This document shows positions 1 through 6,734 of a stretch of 64,000 bases of DNA, piece after piece. Each line of letters opens with the position of its first letter. The first letter of the stretch is position 1. Position numbers and translations under genes: made by a program. The notes beneath the pieces are model-generated. The model ran no database searches. It was not told where the DNA came from and was given only the letters and a program-made list of their open reading frames with translations. Origin of the DNA: Streptomyces sp. NBC_01276 (GTDB taxonomy: Bacteria > Actinomycetota > Actinomycetes > Streptomycetales > Streptomycetaceae); NCBI RefSeq assembly GCF_041435355.1, contig NZ_CP108443.1, forward strand, positions 248,001 through 312,000. Direction: 5' to 3'.

Positions 1-1371
1 GCCGTATCGATCAGGGCCGGAGAGGTGCGGGAGGCGCTCGTCCGGCTGGAACAGGGACGTGGCGTCCTGCTGGCCCAGGCACTGGAGCTGCGCGGCCGGC
101 ACGACGACCTCAGGGTTGCGGACTCCGGGCTCGCCGACCGCTTCGAGCGGGTCTGCGCCGAGCTGGTGGCATCACACCGCAGCCCACGGCAGCGCCGGAA
201 GTCGGCGGGCGACTTCGACTCGCTGGTGGAGGAGATCCGGGCCCTGACCGACTTCGAGGATTTCCAACAGCCTCCCGCCTGGCAGAAGTTGCGCGAGGCG
301 GCGGCGCAGGGGCCGGTCGTCGTGATCAATGTGTCGCCGCCGGCCTGCTTCGCCCTGCTGCTGACTCCCTCCACCGACGGCGGCGCGGTGACCCTGGACC
401 ATCTGCCACTGCAGGTCACGGCGGACGACATCGCCGCCCGTGCCGAGGCCTTCCACACCGCCGTCGCCGCGCTCGTCGACCGGGCGACCCCCGGCCCGGA
501 GCGCTACCTGCAGGACCGCGCCATGAAGGACACCCTGCGATGGCTGGGCGTACACATCGCCGGCCCCGTCCTCGACCGGCTGGGCCTCAGGGGGAACCCG
601 CGCCCCGGCGACCCCCTGCCACGGCTGTGGTGGTGCCCGACGGGGGTGCTGTCCCTGCTGCCGCTGCACGCGGCCCTCCTCGACCAGGACGGCGCGTACG
701 TCCAGGACCGGGTCGTCTCCTCGTACGTCCCGACCCTCGGCTCCCTGCTGCACGCGCGCTCCCGGCCGGCCCCGTCCCCCGACCGGGCCTCGCTCCTGAC
801 CGTCGCCGTCGACGCCGCCGGTCAGGCGTACCCGCGCCTGGCAGCCCTGGACGACGAGCTGAAGGCGGCGAGCGGAATGCCGGGGCGCCGACAGCGGCTG
901 CGGGACACCGAGGCCACACCCGACGCCGTGCTCGCCGCGCTGCGCACGCACACCCACGCCCACCTGGCCTGTCACGGCGTACGGGACCCGGGCGACCCCT
1001 CGCACAGCCGGCTCCTGCTGTCCGGCGGCGAGCTGACCCTGCGCGCACTGGCCACCGAGCGGCTGCCGAACGCGGAGTTCGCGTACCTGTCCGCCTGCCA
1101 CAGCGCGGCCGCCGGGGAGGAGCTGGCCGACGAAGTCATCTCCGTGGCATCCGCGTTCCAGCTGTGCGGCTACCGGCACGTGATCGGAAGCCTGTGGACG
1201 GTCCAGGACGCCATGGGGCCGCTCCTGGCCCGCGCGGTCTACCGGAACCTCGCGGCACCGGACGGCCCCGGGCCGGCGTACGCCCTGCACCGGGCGGTCG
1301 CCGAGCTGCGCGCCCACGGCGACTACGACGACCCGCTGTTCTGGGCGTCGGTCATCCACAGCGGACCGTGA
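1..1371 (+). CDS. CHAT-domain protein, C-terminal part (gene starts before the window)
   Basis: The reading frame is open from base 1, so the gene starts upstream and the GTG at 25 is internal. About 456 codons are visible. The first part resembles the TPR-like lead-in typical of actinobacterial CHAT proteins (LEQGRGVLLAQALELR). The rest is a CHAT (caspase HetF-associated with TPR) protease domain. It shows the two catalytic signatures in order: HLACHG, with the likely catalytic His at 973-975, and LSACHSA, with the Cys at 1096-1098, followed by the conserved IGSLWTV segment. CHAT proteases act as proteolytic effectors in several bacterial conflict systems. The gene runs into two downstream genes with a 20-bp gap. 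The operon placement suggests a CATRA-type effector; the family call is firm and the system call is inference. Confidence 0.88.
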   Translation, partial: AVSIRAGEVREALVRLEQGRGVLLAQALELRGRHDDLRVADSGLADRFERVCAELVASHRSPRQRRKSAGDFDSLVEEIRALTDFEDFQQPPAWQKLREAAAQGPVVVINVSPPACFALLLTPSTDGGAVTLDHLPLQVTADDIAARAEAFHTAVAALVDRATPGPERYLQDRAMKDTLRWLGVHIAGPVLDRLGLRGNPRPGDPLPRLWWCPTGVLSLLPLHAALLDQDGAYVQDRVVSSYVPTLGSLLHARSRPAPSPDRASLLTVAVDAAGQAYPRLAALDDELKAASGMPGRRQRLRDTEATPDAVLAALRTHTHAHLACHGVRDPGDPSHSRLLLSGGELTLRALATERLPNAEFAYLSACHSAAAGEELADEVISVASAFQLCGYRHVIGSLWTVQDAMGPLLARAVYRNLAAPDGPGPAYALHRAVAELRAHGDYDDPLFWASVIHSGP

Positions 1372-1391
1372 CGACGAACGGGAGAAGGGCC

Positions 1392-1766
1392 ATGCAGGAA
1401 GAGGACCGTTCGCTGCGCGCGGCGTTCTGCGCGGCGATGTCATGGTTGGACGACGTCATGGCGTCCGAAGGCCGGGGCGACGAACTCCGCTCCGCCGCGC
1501 AGGCCGTCCGCGCCGGTACGACGACCGTACGGCAGGCGATCGCCGGACTGGGCATCCCGGAACACGTACTGACCGGCGCCACGGGCACGACGCGCGGGGA
1601 GGGCGAGGGCGGCGTTCCCGGACCGGTACCGCACCCCGCCGGTGAGGTCTACCTGTGCCCCGACGGCTGGTGCGGCCTGAGGCAGATCCGGCAGCCGGGC
1701 GGTGCCGTACCGGCCGGCGGGCGCTGCCGGCTGCGGGACCAGCCGCTGCGCGTCCTGGAGGCGTGA
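1392..1766 (+). CDS. Small CHAT-associated protein (CATRA system-associated type)
   Basis: This 124-residue protein starts at ATG 1392 behind a GGGAG-type ribosome site, 20 bp after the CHAT gene. The N-terminal half is predicted helical. The C-terminal half carries a cysteine-bearing motif (YLCPDGWC) and a short basic tail with one more Cys (GGRCRL). Its length, motif and position match the small proteins that accompany CHAT effectors in actinobacterial CATRA conflict systems. That match is from memory of the family, not a search. It is followed 4 bp later by the membrane-protein gene, so the three genes are very likely co-transcribed. Biochemical role unknown; it could be a regulator or substrate of the CHAT protease. 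Confidence 0.72.
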   Translation: MQEEDRSLRAAFCAAMSWLDDVMASEGRGDELRSAAQAVRAGTTTVRQAIAGLGIPEHVLTGATGTTRGEGEGGVPGPVPHPAGEVYLCPDGWCGLRQIRQPGGAVPAGGRCRLRDQPLRVLEA

Positions 1767-1770
1767 GCGG

Positions 1771-2679
1771 ATGCCCCCCGTACTCGACCAACTCGGCGAG
1801 AAACTGGCCGAGAAGTGGGTGTCCGCCCTGGCGCTGCCCGGGCTGCTCTTCGTCGGGGCGAGCACCTGCGCCGCCGTGCTCGGCCAGGGCCGTGCCCTCG
1901 ACGCCGGTCTCCTGATCGAGGAGGCCGGACACTGGGCGACGACGGTGGCGCACTGGCCGGTCGTGGGGCAGGTCGCGGCGGTGGCGGTGACCTTCCTCGT
2001 GGCCGTGGCCATGGGGATGTCCGTCCGCGTGTGCAGCGAGGGCGCCGTACGGGTCTGGACGGGGGACTGGCCACGACCGGCCCGCCGGCTGGCCCGGCGG
2101 GTGACCGCACGCCGGGCGGGGCTCTGGGGAGACCTGCAGCGGCAGATCGACGGGATCCGCGGCGACAACCCGCCGTACGACCGCGACGACGCGCAACGGC
2201 GACGGATCGCGGACCTCACCGCCCGCCGTGACCGGATGGGGCTCTCCTCACCGGCCCGGCCCACGTACACCGGCGACCGGTTCGCCGGGGTGGAGAGCCG
2301 CCTGCGGGGCCAGTACGGCATCGACCTGGCCGCCTGCTGGCCCGGGCTGTGGCTGGTGCTGCCGGAGGAGGTCAGGGCGGAGCTGCGGTCCACGCGGGCC
2401 CGGTTCGACGCCGAGGTGGCCGGATCGGTGTGGGCCTGCTGCTACGTGGTGCTCGGCTGCTTCTGGTGGCCGGCCGCCGTGGGGGGCGCCGCCGCCGGCC
2501 TCGTCGCCTGGCGGCGCGGCCGGGGGGCGGCCGCGGTGCACGCCGGGCTGGTGGAGGCCGCCGTCGACGTCCACCTGCGGAAACTGGCCGAGGAGGTGGG
2601 CATCGCCGTGCCCCCGGGCCCCACCTGGGAGCCCGGCGTGGGCCTCCTCTTCAACCGCCTGTTCCGCAAGGGCGCATAG
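1771..2679 (+). CDS. Membrane protein of the CHAT operon
   Basis: A 302-residue protein starting at ATG 1771, 4 bp after the previous stop. Two hydrophobic segments lie near residues 15-35 and 60-85, and a third pair near residues 215-250 (SVWACCYVVLGCF and following). Between them is a long charged, probably cytoplasmic, region rich in Arg and Asp that contains helical DRDDAQRRRIADLTARRDR. I do not recognise a named family. Position directly behind a CHAT protease and its small partner suggests a membrane component of the same system, perhaps a sensor or a pore-like effector target. That role is inference. Confidence 0.7.
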   Translation: MPPVLDQLGEKLAEKWVSALALPGLLFVGASTCAAVLGQGRALDAGLLIEEAGHWATTVAHWPVVGQVAAVAVTFLVAVAMGMSVRVCSEGAVRVWTGDWPRPARRLARRVTARRAGLWGDLQRQIDGIRGDNPPYDRDDAQRRRIADLTARRDRMGLSSPARPTYTGDRFAGVESRLRGQYGIDLAACWPGLWLVLPEEVRAELRSTRARFDAEVAGSVWACCYVVLGCFWWPAAVGGAAAGLVAWRRGRGAAAVHAGLVEAAVDVHLRKLAEEVGIAVPPGPTWEPGVGLLFNRLFRKGA

Positions 2680-2782: not shown

Positions 2783-3229
2783 TCAGGCGAGGGCGGTGAC
2801 CAGCAGGGTGAAGGCCGCGATGATCACGGCGACCCGGACGTAGTGGAAGCGGTCCCAGCGGTTCATCTGCTGCTTCCAGTCGGCCGGCAGGCCGTCGGCG
2901 GTCCACGTCTTGACCCGGTTGTTGATCGGGACGAGCAGCAGGATCGACATGACCACACTGAGGATCAGCAACGCGGCGGCGGTGACGACGAGGCCGGCGC
3001 CGTGGTGGTCGCGTCCGGCGACGGCCCAGACGGCGGCGAGGACGAGCGAGCCGATGTACCAGAACGGCATCACGGCGCCCAGCAGCCGGGCCCCGTGGGT
3101 GCGGCCGCGCAGGCCGTTGTCCCCGGGGAGGCCGTCGAGGATCGGGTTGACGAAGAAGGCGACGGAGAACTCCACTCCCACCATCACGCCGACCGCCACG
3201 GTGGTGAAGACCTCAAGTGCATGGAGCAT
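2783..3229 (-). CDS. DUF1772 (anthrone oxygenase-like) integral membrane protein
   Basis: A 148-residue protein with four predicted membrane segments: near residues 5-27 (ending VEFSVAFFVNP), 50-70, 78-103 and 128-147. It has the conserved layout of DUF1772, a family related to anthrone oxygenases and common in Streptomyces beside TetR regulators. The WDRFHYVR segment before the last helix is typical. The start ATG has a GAGGGG site 5 nt upstream. It is transcribed divergently from the TetR gene across a 91-bp gap packed with operator-like palindromes, so it is probably that regulator's target. Substrate unknown. Confidence 0.82.
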   Translation of the reverse strand: MLHALEVFTTVAVGVMVGVEFSVAFFVNPILDGLPGDNGLRGRTHGARLLGAVMPFWYIGSLVLAAVWAVAGRDHHGAGLVVTAAALLILSVVMSILLLVPINNRVKTWTADGLPADWKQQMNRWDRFHYVRVAVIIAAFTLLVTALA

Positions 3230-3320: not shown

Positions 3321-3899
3321 ATGTCGGTACAGGAACGCAAGGAGCGCGAGCGGGCGGGCCGCGAGCGCCTCATCGTGGCGACGGCCCGTGAACTCGCCGA
3401 GCAGCAGGGCTGGGACGCGGTCACCACCCGCCGGCTCGCCGAGCGCATCGAGTACAGCCAGCCCGTCCTCTACGGCCACTTCCGCGGCAAGCGCGAGATC
3501 ATCGGTGCCGTCGCCCTCGAAGGCGCCGCCGAGATGGCCGCGGCGCTGCGGGCCGCGGCCTCCACCACGGACGGCCCGCGCGCCCGGGTCGCCTCCCTCG
3601 CCCGCGCCTACCTCGGCTTCGCCGAACGGAACCCGGCGGTCTACGACGCCATGTTCCAGCTCGACGGCGGCCTGGCGTTCGCGAAGGAGGACACCCCGGA
3701 GCCTCTGAAGGACGCCTTCGCCGCCCTGCTGGAGAGCCTCGGCGAGGTCGCCGGGGACGGCGTCCACCCGGCGTTGTTCACCGAGGTGTTCTGGGCGTCC
3801 CTGCACGGGCTGGCGACCCTGACCCGGGCGGGACGGCTGCCGCCGGGTGACGCCGAGCGGAGGGTGGAGTTGCTCGTGGACCGGCTCGCCGTGGTCTGA
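3321..3899 (+). CDS. TetR/AcrR family transcriptional regulator
   Basis: A 192-residue regulator. The N-terminal TetR helix-turn-helix covers about residues 10-60 (VATARELAEQQGWDAV, then TTRRLAERIEYSQPVLYGHFRGK). The C-terminal domain is a TetR_C ligand-binding bundle ending with an LTRAGRLPPGDAERRVELLVDRL helix. It is divergent from the DUF1772 membrane-protein gene and sits just downstream of the CTAGC palindromes, so repression of both genes is likely. The ligand cannot be told from sequence. Confidence 0.92.
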   Translation: MSVQERKERERAGRERLIVATARELAEQQGWDAVTTRRLAERIEYSQPVLYGHFRGKREIIGAVALEGAAEMAAALRAAASTTDGPRARVASLARAYLGFAERNPAVYDAMFQLDGGLAFAKEDTPEPLKDAFAALLESLGEVAGDGVHPALFTEVFWASLHGLATLTRAGRLPPGDAERRVELLVDRLAVV

Positions 3900-5816: not shown

Positions 5817-6237
5817 CCCAGGCAAACAGGCCGGTGCCAGTCCTGGTCGGCGTCGCGCACTGACAGTCCCTCCAACTCACGGGACGCCGCACGTTCGTTC
5901 GGCATCCCGTGCAAACGCGTGGACGCCGAAGCCCGGCAAGGCGTTCGGCATCACCGCTCCGGGCCGCGCAGAACCAGCCCTACGACGGAAGCCCCCGCCC
6001 CGGCACCGGGCCGGCCGCGGGGGCCTCGCCGTTTCCGGACGCGGTCACCGGAAGTGCTGCCCGTGGGGTGACTGCCGACGGCAAGGGCGTCTGCCGTGCC
6101 GGAGCGGCACGGGACATCCTGGGCGCACCTGACCGTATCCACGGCGTACCGAACCGGATCCGGCAGAGCGGATCCCGGCTCGCGCACCGGGCGATACTGT
6201 GGTGGGACACGCCAGTTCCGCGTCTCTGGAGCCATCG
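5817..6237. other. Intergenic stretch with one hairpin
   Basis: I see no supportable gene here. It contains the terminator-like hairpin at 5992-6025 and two copies of GCGTTCGGCATC-like sequence (near 5892 and 5940). The last 50 bases should hold the promoter of the small gene pair that follows. Confidence 0.5.
5992..6025. terminator. Hairpin, probable terminator of the hydrolase gene
   Basis: GCCCCCGC (5992-5999) pairs with GCGGGGGC (6018-6025) across an 18-nt GC-rich loop. No T-run follows, as is usual for Streptomyces terminators. Confidence 0.45.
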
Positions 6238-6474
6238 ATGAGCGAACAGCCGGCCCTCGCCGACACCGCCGCCCGGCAACAGCTGGAGCCCGCCGCCGCG
6301 GACGCCGTGCGCGCGTACGCGGCCAAGACCCGGGCCGACGCGGACCGGTTCGCCGGCGTCCTGGAGGACATCGCCACCAACGGTCTGCCCGCGGTGGAGG
6401 ACTGCACGCCCTGGGAAGAGCTCCGCGAGGCCCACCTCGGCCGCCTCGCCGCGCAGCGCCCGGCCGTCGCCTGA
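6238..6474 (+). CDS. Small antitoxin-like protein upstream of a RelE-like gene
   Basis: A 78-residue acidic, Ala-rich, probably all-helical protein starting at ATG 6238. It contains ADAVRAYAAKTRADADRF and ends with a short, charged helix (WEELREAHLGRLAAQ). Its stop codon overlaps the start of the next gene (TGATG), the coupling typical of type II toxin-antitoxin pairs. I do not recognise a named antitoxin family or a clear DNA-binding motif. Assignment as antitoxin rests on the partner gene and the arrangement. Confidence 0.6.
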   Translation: MSEQPALADTAARQQLEPAAADAVRAYAAKTRADADRFAGVLEDIATNGLPAVEDCTPWEELREAHLGRLAAQRPAVA

Positions 6475-6734
6475 TGGCCCCGCGCCGCGCCCGCATCGCC
6501 TTCTCCGACTCCGCCGCCAAGCAGCTGGAGGACCTGACCGGCGAGGCCGAGATCCACGCCCTGGACCGCGCCCTGGTCGTCATCTCCGTCGACCCCGAGG
6601 CCGGCGAGCCGATACCCGCCGACAGCGCCGGCCCCCGGCTGCGCCAGTACGCCGACGAACTCGAAGGCGTCCGCGTCCTGTACTTCGTCACCGCCCTGCG
6701 CACCATCGTGGTCGTGGCGTACATCGAGGTCTGA
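6474..6734 (+). CDS. RelE/ParE-superfamily toxin-like protein
   Basis: An 86-residue protein translationally coupled to the small upstream gene through a TGATG overlap. It has the order expected of a RelE/ParE fold: a first strand (RIAFSDSAAKQLEDL), helices, then an Arg-Gln-Tyr hinge (RLRQY) and two C-terminal strands (VRVLYFVTAL, TIVVVAYIEV). Members of the superfamily act as ribosome-dependent RNases or gyrase poisons. Specific catalytic residues are not certain here, so the toxin role is inference from fold pattern, size and operon layout. Confidence 0.62.
   Translation: MAPRRARIAFSDSAAKQLEDLTGEAEIHALDRALVVISVDPEAGEPIPADSAGPRLRQYADELEGVRVLYFVTALRTIVVVAYIEV

Follow-up and report, generated by a model that had tools for sequence, protein, structure and literature searches.

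Three genes in a tight row on the + strand

The window, that is the whole stretch of 64,000 nt from Streptomyces sp. NBC_01276 that was analysed (contig NZ_CP108443.1, positions 248,001 to 312,000), opens with three adjacent + strand genes: the end of a gene for a TPR-CHAT protease (1..1371, encoding its C-terminal 456 residues), a gene for a small ribbon-type protein of 124 aa (P0002, 1392..1766) and a gene for a membrane protein of 302 aa that is predicted to be all-helical (P0003, 1771..2679). The ATG of the small gene at 1392, preceded by GGAGAAGG, is 20 nt past the CHAT stop, and that of the membrane gene at 1771 is 4 nt past the small-gene stop, which bears out the positions of the tight operon that the original prediction had placed at the window edge. 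Since the CHAT reading frame enters the window mid-gene, its 5' end lies before the edge, and an extension into upstream sequence of the same contig (L006, G000:C2:232001-250700) recovered the whole frame (L006:14300-17371). It is about 1023 aa long with the start codon that we chose, begins about 1.7 kb before the window and ends at window position 1371. No recognisable metabolic operon with CHAT was seen in this extension, where the genes upstream are integrase-like, LysR and alpha/beta hydrolase genes (the integrase-like one at L006:10392-11486, ~3 kb upstream of CHAT, matches PF00589 just below the cut-off). Neither these genes nor the surroundings of the window form a recognisable defence island, and no neighbouring defence system was identified. 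Downstream of the trio, a gene for an Anthrone_oxy-family membrane protein (2783-3229, - strand) is divergent from a TetR regulator gene (3321-3899, + strand), a pair that looks like a separate unit. Further on, the end of a frame at 6096-6734 (+ strand) gives the impression, from its sequence, of a small RelE/ParE-type toxin.

The CHAT domain (PF12770) covers residues 744-1022 of the protease (E=1.2e-45, 156.7 bits against a cut-off of 24). A Pfam scan of this protein found no significant TPR family; CHAT paralogues encoded in the same genome do match TPR families (L091 over the cut-off, L101 below it), and the best match to Csx29/TPR-CHAT in a sequence search of the structure database is weak (7zoq, E=4.5e-4). 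Among 77 aligned CHAT copies, the predicted catalytic His (HLACHG, codon 973..975, + strand) is present in all 75 that cover its column, and the predicted catalytic Cys (YLSACHS, codon 1096..1098, + strand) in all 76 that cover its own, so that the protease is, judging by this conserved His-Cys dyad, catalytically intact. An Asp follows 37 residues C-terminal of the Cys in 74/76 copies and may recognise a basic P1 residue, as in separase. Conservation is lower in the TPR part than in the CHAT part (63, 68 and 73% against 71, 87 and 85% in three clades), which fits a sensor role.

In its structural model (mean pLDDT 75.5), the small protein consists of helices (residues 2-60), a disordered linker and a short-stranded, ribbon-like tail. 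The linker comprises residues 61-84 (1572..1643, + strand), with pLDDT <50 at residues 64-74 and 76-78, and the tail (1644..1760, + strand) carries a CPDGWC ... C pattern (C89, C94 and C112). In an alignment of 58 sequences with hand-chosen starts, drawn from the 81 loci described below (A4), Cys89, Pro90 and Cys112 are invariant (58/58), Cys94 nearly so (57/58), and Cys13 is found in all 56 rows that cover its column. The three tail Cys are thus near-invariant, a fourth tail ligand (CxxH) is found in 16/81 small proteins, and Cys13 could be a further metal ligand of the putative zinc ribbon. In one paralogue from the same genome (L091:6555-6929), CPGGDxxWYR...CPRHG replaces CPxxxC, and a small protein encoded on a Rhodococcus plasmid (L126) is of the same type. 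The best Foldseek rows for the model are stretches of MCM N-terminal domains that are not significant (E 0.78).

Within the otherwise loose linker there is a single conserved basic residue, Arg68 in the window (codon 1593-1595, + strand), which is Arg in 48 of the 58 aligned rows and not in the other 10. An R[GSAT]...hydrophobic-P motif, defined after inspection of the linkers, occurs in 63/81 of them and in a mean of 18.7 (maximum 27) after shuffling. Arg likewise stands 20-22 residues ahead of the first tail Cys in 63/81 small proteins, against 6 to 41/81 for the other three-residue windows tested; because the top of that range is a second Arg-rich stretch (41-43 residues ahead, 41/81), Arg enrichment by itself is not specific. 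On its conservation, the linker Arg is a candidate CHAT cut site.

The AlphaFold2 model of the membrane protein is all-helical (pLDDT 93.4, pTM 0.84), and 44 relatives were found by sequence search. Family-mean hydropathy peaks strongly at three places, around residues 28, 76 and 235, which makes the original description of a three-helix membrane protein a fair one. The third peak falls at the break between helices 199-229 and 233-276 of the model, so that a helical hairpin, and hence four segments, is possible. Between the hydrophobic segments, the model has a large conserved helical region.

The description of the membrane protein as unrecognised has held up, and it applies to the small protein as well. 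Neither window protein came near a cut-off in Pfam/NCBIfam scans, a PADLOC search returned nothing at E <1, and Pfam scans of 58 small and 80 membrane family members gave single-member matches and no consistent family. Pfam domains were absent from all 89 small-protein relatives found, which, where the source names them, are called hypothetical or uncharacterized. No fold match listed for the membrane protein model was significant.

A co-inherited unit

We fetched loci with the membrane protein, one genome per species, and analysed the best 80 of 223 stretches that encode a relative, with gene ends taken from stop-to-stop frames and no gene caller. All 80 are titled as actinobacteria (Streptomyces, Nonomuraea, Actinomadura, Amycolatopsis, Saccharothrix, Lentzea, Micromonospora, Frankia, Nocardia and others). 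A small Cys-motif gene lies just 5' of the membrane gene in 80/80 of these best loci (81/81 counting the window). A set gathered by the membrane protein is biased towards finding pairs. The pairing is not due to chance: all 81 loci have a + strand ORF with a CP...C...C tail that ends next to the start of the membrane gene, whereas 500 sets of random anchors in the same loci yielded a mean of 1.5 and never more than 5. In the reverse direction, a search of 150 Streptomyces genomes gave 38 matches to the small protein, of which 36 adjoin a membrane-protein match, the other two being the weakest listed. In 72 of the 79 loci with settable starts, the small-gene stop is at most 10 nt from the membrane start or overlaps it (22 overlap), and the two genes are translationally coupled in most loci.

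The place of the protease gene varies. It is present in 76/80 of these best loci, as expected from the original prediction that the two partners belong with CHAT, and across the 81 loci with the window it is divergent from the pair in 46, follows it in 17, precedes it in 12 and is missing from 4 (in 2 further loci of divergent type, a reverse CHAT frame overlaps the membrane gene). This is the pattern expected if the small and membrane proteins must be co-made: CHAT may lie before, after or divergent while the pair stays coupled. The four exceptions differ from one another. In two of them (L028 and L054), the contig ends within a TPR-rich reverse frame; L030 has a TPR-containing frame that leads on into dehydrogenase-like sequence; and in L046, the pair is kept and CHAT was not seen in the locus. 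Pairs that persist without CHAT, as in L046 and L030, could be tolerated by the cell if the membrane protein is held in check by the small one.

Homologues lying away from CHAT genes would have spoken against the association, and here the outcome is mixed. Among the 77 CHAT loci with the window, CHAT is ~300 bp or less from the pair in 65 and within 1 kb in 69, with 8 at 1.5-2.6 kb, whereas 7 of 20 distant membrane-protein relatives, hand-picked from the matches in 150 Streptomyces genomes, have no detectable CHAT; CHAT control is therefore not universal across the wider membrane-protein superfamily. One distant branch without detectable CHAT (L107, L111, L113 and L119) has a LPTALGNALRAGE...DLHRF pattern; a CP-tail small gene stands ahead of the membrane-protein gene in L111, a Uma2-type gene lies near that in L107, and a DUF4132 gene lies immediately upstream in L113.

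Distances between membrane proteins correlate with those between CHAT domains (r=0.88 in 73 loci; no permutation exceeded 0.13), and do so even more closely (0.94) among 40 loci from Streptomyces, with their narrower spread of species distances. In 37/40 Streptomyces loci, the nearest relative by membrane protein shares the gene order. A TPR-CHAT protease is thus inherited together with a multi-pass membrane protein and a small protein of two domains.

The unit is patchily distributed. Searches of 150 Streptomyces genomes matched the membrane protein in 46 and the small protein in 30, and the genome of the window has four membrane-protein copies (window, L101, L091 and L102), of which L101 and L091 each have their own CHAT and small gene. 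The membrane-protein family also occurs on 10 plasmid records (8 Streptomyces, 1 Embleya and 1 Rhodococcus); all 3 plasmids examined have an annotated CHAT beside the match and a CP-tail small gene, the Rhodococcus one being without the second Cys of the pair. No membrane-protein match was found in 50,697 phage records, and none was confirmed in viral contigs. In a window-related trio of Streptomyces lavendulae CCM 3239 (L012), the CHAT and membrane frames are in pieces, which looks like a decayed copy or sequencing errors, and one stretch, L066, has tandem copies of the system, with two frames for CHAT and two strong ones for the membrane protein.

This distribution bears on whether the trio serves immunity at all, for it might instead be a developmental or stress-signalling protease module in which processing by CHAT adjusts membrane physiology as the mycelium grows or sporulates. 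The genome matches are in actinobacteria, many of them mycelial, and the lack of a homologue in the phage records, like that of recognised defence neighbours, would suit such a role. Core developmental genes, however, are usually neither patchy nor plasmid-borne, and a family with this patchiness, four copies in one genome and copies on plasmids makes a developmental function unlikely in our view.

Relation to known protease systems

The original prediction had filed the trio with the CATRA-associated systems, and this part of it is not supported. The CATASP profile (PF20271) has no match in the genome of the window (a match was found in 4 of 61 relatives searched), and identity of the small protein with CATASP was rejected: profile comparison gave a probability of 0.1%, and three CATASP proteins contain no cysteine. 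Within the CATRA models that the Pfam library covers, CATASP among them, no family was found in a scan of the three proteins, and no Pfam match is common to the 80 membrane members. The likeness is one of architecture (a caspase-like protease, a small protein and a third component), in keeping with CATRA as described in the available text of PMC8195603, as caspase-dependent ternary conflict systems. Were the trio a known CATRA system whose small and membrane components have diverged, this ternary make-up would be accounted for; with a small protein that shares no profile similarity with CATASP, in a genome that has none, that is a very improbable reading. The accessible part of PMC7159879 contains no mention of CHAT or CATRA. 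A literature search found nothing that describes the trio. An earlier description may exist in Burroughs and Aravind 2020, reportedly the paper that defines CATRA systems.

A precedent is Craspase. According to the available part of PMC10028731, the TPR-CHAT protease Csx29 cuts Csx30, which binds and inhibits CASP-sigma and once cut no longer restrains its partner. The trio similarly has a putative TPR region followed by a CHAT domain with a His-Cys dyad, and its small partner with a linker is a candidate substrate. Nevertheless, its CHAT protein scores 53 bits against a cut-off of 300 on the NCBIfam model for Csx29 (NF041237), and it is partnered by a membrane protein and one of ribbon type, whereas Csx29 belongs to type III-E CRISPR, with Csx30 and CASP-sigma; Cas7-11 was not noticed at the trio in untargeted inspection.

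Bacterial gasdermin systems, in turn, encode a protease and a membrane effector together and rely on proteolytic activation, as we infer for the trio. Gasdermins form beta-barrel pores, whereas the membrane protein of the trio is predicted to be all-helical, with hydrophobic segments, and the candidate cut site sits on a separate small protein. Gasdermin is not among the fold matches listed for the membrane protein, none of which is significant, and there is no Pfam match to it either.

A proposed protease-gated membrane effector

The strongest evidence for the ribbon part acting on CHAT, or together with it, comes from natural fusions. In L102 (L102:3966-8634), CHAT is followed in the same frame by a tail (GRLPGSG...CPEPGC...CCPDHP), and the gene lies directly upstream of a membrane-protein gene; loci in two other Streptomyces genomes (L103 and L123) have the same layout, so that the membrane-protein gene is directly 3' in all three cases of a ribbon-like CP...C...C tail fused at the CHAT C-terminus. 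A search of 246 genomes with the L102 tail gave these three as strong matches and four weak ones. An intact CHAT, a tail that can be joined to it and a conserved linker Arg make it the simplest reading that CHAT controls the membrane protein by cutting the small one. The conserved Arg need not mark the cut, since the sites at which three Csx29 orthologues cut, after M, L or A, are not conserved (available part of PMC11106740).

The trio would then work as follows. The small protein would bind CHAT via its ribbon tail and keep the membrane protein inactive until the TPR region senses a trigger, most likely a phage or another intruder, and CHAT is turned on. The active protease would cut the small protein in its disordered linker, most probably at the conserved Arg, which is Arg68 in the window. 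The membrane protein, either freed or bound by the released helical fragment, would assemble and permeabilise or depolarise the membrane, by which the cell would be stopped or killed.

The ribbon-like tail fused to CHAT would suit an adaptor as well as a substrate. The small protein might recruit CHAT to the membrane protein, which would be the substrate or the anchor of the complex and would sense envelope stress or a surface event. Coevolution of both partners with CHAT and the large conserved helical region between the hydrophobic segments agree with this arrangement. As a substrate, the membrane protein would have nothing like the flexible linker of the small protein, its model being ordered almost throughout (260/302 residues at pLDDT >=90), and we regard an adaptor role as rather unlikely.

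We therefore favour, with a probability of about 40%, the reading that the trio is a protease-gated, three-component membrane effector of mycelial actinobacteria, with a CHAT-cut small regulator and a phage or other intruder as its likeliest trigger. The association of the three genes is observed, while cutting, membrane damage and defence are what we infer from it; a role in conflict is plausible. A more specific form, in which the trio is a non-gasdermin membrane-killing system of multicellular actinobacteria, whose TPR-CHAT protease cuts a ribbon-type inhibitor at the linker Arg and thereby releases an all-helical pore-forming protein of a nameless family, is somewhat doubtful, and pore formation in it draws on analogy, as no structural match to the membrane protein was significant.

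CHAT proteases abound in actinobacteria and, to our knowledge, substrates are established for few of them. In the trio, a TPR-CHAT protease gains two constant partners and a single defined candidate for the cut site, which makes substrate, inhibitor and effector directly testable, and naming the small and membrane families would aid the annotation of many genomes. If the favoured reading is true, a protease-gated membrane effector would be added to the cell-death systems of multicellular bacteria. In its more specific, pore-forming version, hundreds of genomes, one of them with four copies, would contain a bacterial parallel to caspase-triggered lytic death that is built from unrelated parts.
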